Below, in pieces: positions 34,954-47,880 of a stretch of 51,733 nt of DNA. The number at the start of each line of letters is the position of its first letter. Within the stretch, counting starts at the first letter, position 1. The translations under genes and the position numbers were made by a program. Source of the stretch: Bdellovibrionales bacterium GWB1_55_8 (GTDB taxonomy: Bacteria; Bdellovibrionota; UBA1018); assembly GCA_001769835.1 (NCBI GenBank), contig MEPR01000045.1, forward strand, positions 1 through 51,733, read 5' to 3'. Under the pieces are notes generated by a model. That model was not told where the DNA came from. It searched no databases and worked only from the letters and a program-made list of their open reading frames with translations.

Positions 34954-35069
34954 CTGCCAGGCACCTCTAAATTCGTCAGCAGGCGAGAACGACTCAGGTT
35001 GATTCGGGAAATCGAAATCAGGCAAAGTGGTGACTCCTGCTCTAGATGGGCATGAAAGGAGGTGGTGGG

Positions 35070-35117
35070 ATGATAAATACCTATTGTAGTCCCACGGCGG
35101 AGGTGGCCTTCGGGTAA
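35070..35117 (+). CDS. Short ORF, 15 codons, with perfect Shine-Dalgarno
   Basis: The ORF ATG-ATA-AAT...GGG-TAA encodes a 15-residue peptide, MINTYCSPTAEVAFG, with one cysteine. Its ATG lies 7 nt after GGAGG of AAAGGAGGTG, the strongest ribosome-binding site I saw in the window. An in-frame ATG at 35052 would add six residues but overlaps that site. The last ten codons lie within hairpin 1, and the stop codon is in the inner loop region. A translating ribosome would therefore melt the hairpin. No downstream gene on the same strand would be controlled, so a leader peptide for attenuation is unlikely. The peptide could be a RiPP precursor or a by-product; conservation is the test. Confidence 0.4.
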   Translation: MINTYCSPTAEVAFG

Positions 35118-35164
35118 CCTTCGCCGGGACTAAATATTCCGCGCTTATCACGCGGTGAGGGGAG

Positions 35165-35190
35165 AGGGAGAAATCCTTCTCCCTTTTTTA
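35165..35190 (+). terminator. Rho-independent terminator
   Basis: A perfect 8-bp stem, AGGGAGAA (35165-35172) with TTCTCCCT (35177-35184), has a 4-nt ATCC loop and is followed by a run of six T residues (35184-35189). The orientation is plus strand: on the minus strand no U-tract follows the stem. The T-run overlaps the stop codon of the minus-strand gene ending at 35188. Confidence 0.85.
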
Positions 35191-36447
35191 TTTCTTCGCA
35201 CGAGTCGCCAGACTCTGCAGGTGGCGCTGCAAGGAATCAAGAAAGCTTGGAAACACGGCGGTGGAGATTGCGTCCAGTGACGCCTTTTCAGTACTCTTGT
35301 CGAGTTTCGCAACGGCCACTGGCAGATCCGCATAGTTATTTACGGAGGCCATCATTCCGGTCGATTCACCTAAACCGGCGAGTTGGTCCAGAATAGCTTT
35401 ATCGTAATACGAGAAATCGCCTGTTCGCGAAATAGAGCCCGTTTTTTTCACGAGAACGGTCTTCGTTCCCGCCTGAATCGGTTCAAAAAAGTTCACCGGT
35501 CCAACCACTACAGCCAGATCTGCCGCGCGGTGCAGGTAGGGCATAATTCCGTGGGTATTGTTGACCAGGACTGTTTTTGCCGGAATGACTTCAGGATTCG
35601 CGAGAGCCTCGGATACTTTTGTCACTGATTCCAGCTGGTGCTTTGAATGGAACGTCAGCATCGTCCCGGCCGCGTCGTATCCTGTTTTGCGATCGTAATT
35701 ACCGAAGGTGAGGATGACGGAATCAAATGGGATCGCTTTGCGCAGGTTCTCGAGCAGCTCATTGATTTCCTGTTGTGGATACGCGCCTCGGTATTGGGTG
35801 TCGATGACCGTATCCGGCGCCCGGATATACAGACTGACCACCTTATGTTCCGCGGGAATTCCAAGGCGGCCGCGGATTTCCTCTCGGCTCAGGGAAATGC
35901 TCCGGCGGCTCCCGATGGGTTTCACCAGGTGCATCGGTAAAACGTAAGGCTCTTCCAGAGCCGGCACGCGCTCCCTCATTTCAGACGGAAGTTCCTTGCG
36001 GTACGTAGGGGTCACTTCAGCGTAGTCAGCCAACTGAAGGCGAAACACCATTTCTCCGGGAACAGGGGTTTGGGCCTCGGTCGCAAAACGGGCGGTCGGA
36101 AAAAGTTCGATCAGCACTCTTTTCACGAATTGGGCCTGTAACCATTCACCCTTGTGCATCGAATCCATTTTTTCGCCAAAATGCATGCTTTCAAAAACGA
36201 CCGGTTTGCCTGAGTAGGTCTGCGCGAATTTCGCGATCGCGTGTGACTGCAGGAGTTGCTTGTCCGATAGCGTCAGCGGAACTGCTTCAGGTACCGGAAA
36301 TCCTTTTTGAGGTGCCAACTGCTCCGCTAGAAAAGCCGTTATCTGGGGAGGGCAGGGCTCCTGGGCCGCGTTGGCCTGACCCTCTCCCAGGAAAGGCAGG
36401 GGCATCGAGGCGATTATGAAAATCGGAAAATATTGAAGCCAAGCCAT
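35188..36447 (-). CDS. Exported GT-B-like protein of unknown function
   Basis: This 419-residue protein begins with a signal peptide (about 1-28, ending QANA-A). The C-terminal half has a Rossmann-like layout similar to the nucleotide-binding domain of GT-B glycosyltransferases such as KDO transferase. It includes VVSLYIRAPDTVI, then SVILTFGNYDRK, then NNTHGIMPYLHRAADLAVVVGPVNFFEPIQAGTKTVLV. This corresponds to the region where an acidic residue contacts the donor sugar. A GT-B enzyme with a signal peptide would lack cytoplasmic sugar nucleotides, so it may be a binding protein or use another donor. The fold assignment is by resemblance only. LepB is encoded 81 nt upstream on the same strand. 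Confidence 0.6.
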   Translation of the reverse strand: MAWLQYFPIFIIASMPLPFLGEGQANAAQEPCPPQITAFLAEQLAPQKGFPVPEAVPLTLSDKQLLQSHAIAKFAQTYSGKPVVFESMHFGEKMDSMHKGEWLQAQFVKRVLIELFPTARFATEAQTPVPGEMVFRLQLADYAEVTPTYRKELPSEMRERVPALEEPYVLPMHLVKPIGSRRSISLSREEIRGRLGIPAEHKVVSLYIRAPDTVIDTQYRGAYPQQEINELLENLRKAIPFDSVILTFGNYDRKTGYDAAGTMLTFHSKHQLESVTKVSEALANPEVIPAKTVLVNNTHGIMPYLHRAADLAVVVGPVNFFEPIQAGTKTVLVKKTGSISRTGDFSYYDKAILDQLAGLGESTGMMASVNNYADLPVAVAKLDKSTEKASLDAISTAVFPSFLDSLQRHLQSLATRAKK

Positions 36448-47781: not shown

Positions 47782-47880
47782 GAGGTCGTGTTCCTTTCAT
47801 TAAGTGGAATGAGCACGTGTTTTATCGAAGAAATTATTTTACTTTGCAAGAAAATTAAACGGACGTATAAGGCGGTTTCT

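Follow-up and report, generated by a model that had tools for sequence, protein, structure and literature searches.

A predicted translated RNA family of the Bdellovibrionota, orthologous by sequence to APsRNA2 of Bdellovibrio bacteriovorus HD100, with a Shine-Dalgarno element ahead of its stop codon

The window analyzed here, the whole stretch of 51,733 nucleotides from a contig of Bdellovibrionales bacterium GWB1_55_8, carries on its plus strand an RNA gene with relatives across the phylum Bdellovibrionota: at least 86 of the 369 genomes searched, in 15 of 29 families, have one. By sequence comparison, this RNA is orthologous to APsRNA2 of Bdellovibrio bacteriovorus HD100. Comparison of the copies establishes, as features predicted from sequence, a 5'-terminal hairpin (P0), a hyper-strong Shine-Dalgarno sequence (SD1), a hairpin at the start codon (P1), a mini-ORF with a conserved frame, a second Shine-Dalgarno element (SD2) at a fixed distance from the stop codon, and an autonomous transcript. 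The best explanation, which we consider evenly poised between right and wrong, is a free-standing translated regulatory RNA of the Bdellovibrionota on which a ribosome would be captured and parked at the stop codon, switching the fold. The features in the window are the following:

35037-35189, plus strand: RNA of about 150 nt that runs from the 5' hairpin through the terminator, with the same layout kept in relatives; the start is placed at 35037 by the mapped 5' end of the HD100 homologue, which is the same point
34999-35028, plus strand: probable sigma70-type promoter, TTGATT (34999-35004), 18 nt and CAAAGT (35023-35028), weak in this genome
35039-35051, plus strand: P0, 5'-terminal hairpin GCUC-UAGAU-GGGC, with two-sided changes in 4/4 modelled pairs
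35055-35066, plus strand: SD1, hyper-strong Shine-Dalgarno AAAGGAGGUGGU, with a 16S 3' end duplex of -18.7 kcal/mol
35065-35095, plus strand: P1 hairpin, in which 35065-35070 (GUGGGA) pairs with 35090-35095 (UCCCAC)
35070-35117, plus strand: 15-codon ORF MINTYCSPTAEVAFG, with ATG at 35070 and stop UAA (TAA, 35115-35117)
35099-35105, plus strand: SD2, GGAGGUG within the ORF; in 37/37 copies, strong anti-SD pairing occurs at this constant distance before the stop
35087-35132, plus strand: P2, large hairpin of the MFE fold, whose 5' arm contains SD2 and whose loop is close to the stop codon
35139-35155, plus strand: extra small hairpin, only in this genome and missing from the aligned relatives
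35157-35189, plus strand: P3, intrinsic terminator with GGAGAAAUCC at its top, retained in several relatives

A first-pass annotation made from the letters of the window had described a strong Shine-Dalgarno sequence, a 15-codon ORF, a large UUCG hairpin and a terminator, and all four were confirmed. The Shine-Dalgarno sequence, AAAGGAGGTGGT, can form a 12-nt pairing, including one G.U, with the standard 3' end of 16S rRNA. The MFE fold gives the large hairpin (P2) 19 bp; its loop is C(UUCG)G, and the stop codon falls in its apical part. The second hairpin of that annotation is present but restricted to this genome, and three elements, P0, P1 and SD2, were missing from it. In the window copy, the start codon begins at the last 5' base of P1, and P2 shares positions 35090-35093 with P1. 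An automatic consensus scan did not call the promoter at 34999-35028; in the three closest relatives, TTGAC-N18-xAxACT is aligned at its position. Terminator-like sites numbered 3, against 0.4 expected.

The RNA lies in a spacer of 234 bp, the sole clearly open convergent gap in the window, as had been noted before. The other convergent gaps are of 3 bp or less, and a second candidate gap at about 21.6 kb, which arose from a crude ORF call, is filled by the ORF list. The next plus-strand gene downstream starts at 47,788. Past the RNA lies a convergent gene of 419 amino acids (35188-36447, minus strand), whose stop codon overlaps the T-run of the terminator and for which no Pfam match was found.

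A DNA search of 58 related genomes gave three clear homologues, and a Shine-Dalgarno pattern with two mismatches gave a fourth, in which P1 shows a G-to-C change in one arm and C-to-G in the other. The covariance model R1, built from five sequences and restricted to P0-SD1-P1, matched copies in other families. The model R2, built from 12 sequences, matched 40 of the 369 phylum genomes at E<=0.01, of which 39 were kept after reading. Weak model matches in L060, L073, L081, L130, L131 and L134 were rejected since they show no combination of P1, ORF and SD2. The models were limited to P0-SD1-P1 because whole-RNA alignment with MAFFT misplaced P2 and the terminator; since they therefore end before SD2, the test of SD2 is independent of the search. 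In addition, a sequence pattern consisting of SD1, ATG, GAGGT, ten bases and TRR, with no frame condition, matched 63 of the 369 genomes, against 0/369 for the reversed-pattern control. The total of at least 86 genomes comprises model matches, pattern matches and five further Bdellovibrio genomes; as the copies are phylogenetically related, the counts are not independent. The copy number is normally one per genome, the exception being one assembly with two contigs, and no second copy was found in the window's own genome. The covariance-model check proposed in the first-pass annotation thus found stems and ORF conserved in relatives, and its proposal of a structured RNA gene with a function is supported by the phylum-wide conservation and the covariation.

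No Rfam 15 family was found at the gathering cut-off for the window and eight relatives, in agreement with the earlier statement that the RNA belongs to no known family; the sub-threshold matches were mostly to the terminator region and meaningless. Searches of plasmids, phages and viral contigs gave no match, and no relative was found in 24 unrelated genomes. A degenerate YCSPTA pattern gave 24 matches over the genome contigs, all judged by context to be due to chance. The largest family of the phylum, f9 (G058-G186, about 130 genomes), showed no pattern or model match, and there the RNA has either been lost or diverged beyond both searches. In another deltaproteobacterial phylum, 3 of 379 genomes matched the pattern, against 1 for the reversed control. 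Two of these loci, L172 (minus strand, about 1500-1560; MKCSRTVTCEVVAT, read from GTG) and L173 (about 1500-1565; MAKPSTVTTEVVSG), each show an in-frame ORF of 14 codons, flanks resembling those of the other, and SD1, SD2 and a stop codon spaced as in the family. Just one of the pair receives a model score, and a weak one; from their sequence layout we tentatively regard both as possible distant relatives. In families f21 and f22 (L063, L065-L071, L103, L106 and L107), a further 5' hairpin (e.g., GGGGTCCACTGGGTCCC) lies between the promoter and P0.

One genome of the same phylum as the window, G190, is taken by us to be that of B. bacteriovorus HD100. The copy there starts with AAGCTTC... at 535,188, where the P0 hairpin begins, and a TATCAT -10 element ends 7 nt before this point; the pattern matches at 535208-535270, and model R3, which was trained on that locus, scores it at 47.5 bits. 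Position 535,188 is also the mapped start of APsRNA2, a plus-strand transcript of 134 nt (535,188-535,321) mapped by RNA-seq (Karunker et al. 2013, PMC3627812, Table 2). HD100 thus shares with the family the transcript position, the hairpins and the SD1-ORF-SD2 layout, and since the mapped start of APsRNA2 coincides with P0, the family is predicted to be transcribed autonomously from P0. APsRNA2 is higher in the attack phase, the non-growing phase of HD100, with 8,869 RPKM versus 204 in growth phase, a 43-fold difference (PMC3627812). In the same study merRNA reaches 2,038,479 RPKM, about twice tmRNA and about six times SRP RNA (PMC3627812), from which the attack-phase level of APsRNA2 works out at about 1-3% that of tmRNA or SRP RNA. 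Outside B. bacteriovorus its authors detected no homologue, and they make no mention of an ORF (PMC3627812). Among the papers searched, no further one names APsRNA2, the transcript being reported by one RNA-seq study. As published, APsRNA2 is an attack-phase sRNA without homologues or ORF, whereas it resembles the window RNA in P0, SD1, ORF, SD2 and P2; the phylum-wide family, the ORF and SD2 are not recognized in the published description.

For pairing calculations the universal 16S 3' end was used as anti-SD because the 16S gene was not found in the assembly of the window's genome. The mean SD1 duplex over 59 copies is -18.8 kcal/mol. For 183 gene starts (the window and 14 related loci) the mean is -6.7 and the best value -15.2 kcal/mol, so that SD1 is stronger than all the gene starts examined. 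The spacing between SD1 and the start codon is 7-8 nt, and every copy examined carries the 5' hairpin and SD1 and has its start codon in or beside P1.

An ORF with the same layout is present in all 37 model-found copies, with a start codon at a near-constant distance after SD1 in 37/37 and a length of 12-19 codons in these copies, and across the family it has 12-20 codons. Among the pattern matches (58 distinct), 57 have an in-frame ATG start and the remaining one an in-frame GTG; the frame is kept, without internal stops, across seven different ATG-GAGGT distances, where chance would give one third. No purifying selection on the peptide residues was seen in codons 2-5 or in the last three codons. 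In codons 2-5 of related copies, 351 non-synonymous and 30 synonymous differences were counted, evenly spread over codon positions 1, 2 and 3 (223, 178 and 237); these pairs are not independent, although a real coding constraint would look quite different. The last three codons show the same unconstrained behavior. The RNA therefore shares with dual-function sRNAs a short ORF conserved within a structured RNA, without the purifying selection on the peptide. Stop codons of the 59 mini-ORFs are TAG in 36, TAA in 21 and TGA in two, and thus stops read by RF1 close 57 of them, while TGA closes 36% of the neighboring genes and 27 of 38 genes in the window. Since frame, start, stop and SD2 are kept while the amino acids vary, selection acts on translation and not on the peptide; the comparison shows an ORF that is predicted to be translated and whose peptide sequence hardly matters.

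SD2, usually GAGGUG, ends 7-9 nt before the stop in 37/37 model-found copies, a result that is non-circular for nearly all of these and imposed in the pattern-found set. The mean duplex of its 9-mer is -11.7 kcal/mol at the peak and near zero around it; at the site before the stop, mini-ORFs average -12.9 kcal/mol versus -2.7 for ordinary genes. In most copies SD2 is GAG GUG, the codon pair for E-V, but it is also formed from other codons, as AAGGGG, GAGAGG, AGAGGA, GGGAGA or GGGGUGG, and the encoded residues are then different (AKG, LRG, ARG, SGV), which argues that SD2 is conserved as RNA and not as protein. With the stop codon in the A site, 8 nt separate SD2 from the codon in the P site; this matches the spacing of SD1 to the start codon, so that a ribosome at termination would be positioned as for initiation. 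We know of no described RNA family with a Shine-Dalgarno element at the stop codon instead of the start as its signature.

Across 46 distinct copies, 9 of the 10 modelled P0/P1 pairs have changed on both sides: P0 shows two-sided changes in 4/4 pairs with 100% of cells paired, and P1 in 5/6. The covariation score of P0/P1 is 0.520 versus 0.158 in shuffled alignments, with 0/500 shuffles reaching it and slid helices scoring 0.152 at most; the 46-copy alignment was fitted to the covariance model. The first five sequences aligned with MAFFT alone gave 98% pairing and three two-sided pairs, with none in slid versions, and P1 in these five copies is 100% paired with two two-sided pairs. In 83% of copies the pairing partner of SD2 lies downstream of the stop, versus 40% with shuffled 3' sequence, and compensatory changes among Bdellovibrionaceae are seen in the apical stem of P2, the part that flanks the stop codon on both sides. 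These data show that P2 is able, as a predicted fold, to hide SD2. P1 and P2 share bases and are mutually exclusive in the family of the window; family f22 shows no P1/P2 overlap, so the overlap is clear in the window's family and not everywhere.

Several other explanations were weighed against this reading. A cis-acting leader or attenuator for a downstream gene is largely refuted and in our opinion very improbable: the short ORF, competing hairpins and terminator do resemble an attenuator, and throughout Bdellovibrio (L099, L100, L112, L141 and others) a cheA-like operon follows the RNA at a distance of 240-310 bp, but in many families, as in the window, the gene that comes next is convergently oriented, and transcripts end at a terminator. 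The neighbor in other Bdellovibrionaceae is taken as ProA, and in f22 it is convergent and resembles an aspartate kinase, both named from sequence. No neighbor is common to different families, sharing occurring only within a genus or family, and no same-strand gene is constant across species as the target of an attenuator would be; this argues for a gene of its own, in support of the earlier view that it is not a leader. Since the mapped homologue is specific to attack phase, co-expression with the chemotaxis genes in Bdellovibrio is conceivable. Programmed recoding or re-initiation at the stop, whether a prfB-like frameshift or termination-reinitiation, is harder still to credit. An internal Shine-Dalgarno sequence upstream of the stop codon would fit it, as in prfB; however, no conserved +1 or -1 extension past the stop was found and no shifted frame stays open, and a start codon near the stop is not conserved (ATG in 5/59 copies), which together make both processes unlikely. 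In the prfB frameshift site the internal Shine-Dalgarno sequence has a spacing of about 3 nt, unlike the 8 nt to the P-site codon found here.

A base-pairing sRNA, whose mini-ORF would serve only for protection or turnover of the RNA while P0, P2 or the 3' part pairs with target mRNAs, is rather unlikely. It would account for the free-standing transcript, 5' hairpin, terminator and varied neighbors, and the 3' arm of P2 resembles an anti-SD (CCUCC/CCUUCGCC-like), which it does because it pairs with SD2. It leaves unexplained the exact SD2-stop distance in every copy and the bias to RF1 stops, and no conserved single-stranded seed was found beyond SD1/SD2. We judge it unlikely that a peptide of 12-20 amino acids, perhaps modified, is the product of a dual-function RNA or small-protein gene. 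The strictly conserved frame, start and stop and a recurrent (S/T)x(A/T)EV motif favor it, but E-V is the SD2 codon pair, with other residues where other codons make SD2, and the N- and C-terminal residues vary without constraint. Many copies lack Cys (HD100, MVKNVDITKAEVTSS) and no neighboring enzyme is conserved, so that the modified Cys peptide suggested in the first-pass annotation is not upheld. Its other suggestion, an anti-16S decoy, here a hibernation sponge binding ribosomes or 30S subunits through SD1 and SD2, is likewise improbable, and slightly more so. SD1 exceeds all gene Shine-Dalgarno sequences examined and the homologue rises in the non-growing attack phase; nevertheless, the abundance of APsRNA2 is far under ribosome number (PMC3627812), and a decoy would need neither the conserved frame nor the stop and SD2. 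A CsrA-sequestering RNA of the CsrB/RsmZ type was rejected: in many copies SD1 is AAAGGGGGUG, with no GGA, SD2 lies in a stem, and conserved GGA motifs in loops were not found.

The free-standing translated regulatory RNA therefore remains our preferred explanation, with ribosome parking and its output as the part that we infer. SD1 would capture a 30S subunit even though the start codon is structured, and the ribosome would translate the short ORF once, reaching the stop. There, SD2 may bind the 3' end of 16S rRNA with a spacing like that of initiation, slowing release or recycling. The parked ribosome would keep P2 open, and P1 would re-form behind it and block a second ribosome, giving two states of the RNA, ribosome-occupied versus empty with P2 closed. 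We think that this state sets how active or how stable the RNA is in trans, so that the RNA would report on the status of ribosomes or of translation. The fuller version is more tentative, and we hold it as possible and somewhat doubtful: a stand-alone riboregulator in which the mini-ORF is sequence-independent, the hyper-strong SD1 loads one ribosome, the second Shine-Dalgarno element holds it at the stop and the fold signals the state of the ribosome or of RF1 and recycling. Such a riboregulator would be conserved throughout the Bdellovibrionota and possibly in a second deltaproteobacterial phylum.

Known systems share parts of this layout. Both prfB and the present family have an SD-like sequence just before a stop codon that pairs, or would pair, with 16S rRNA in an elongating or terminating ribosome, but the family has a spacing of about 8 nt, no shifted frame and no long product. 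SgrS/SgrT, Spot 42/SpfP and AzuCR are dual-function sRNAs with a functional peptide. Like the family, they are short, structured, free-standing transcripts with a terminator and a very short ORF; in the family, however, the residues are unconstrained, while frame, stop and the Shine-Dalgarno element at the stop are kept. In leader-ORF attenuators, including the trans-acting rnTrpL/peTrpL of Sinorhizobium (PMC7298713), the position of a ribosome on a short ORF can select between competing hairpins; the family differs from rnTrpL/peTrpL in having no downstream operon, no regulatory codon run and no conserved residues.

With these results, one orphan sRNA becomes a family whose start, stop and structure are known. 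The Shine-Dalgarno element at the stop codon predicts an effect on termination and recycling, and if ribosome parking is true, the RNA could sense translation without a special nascent peptide.
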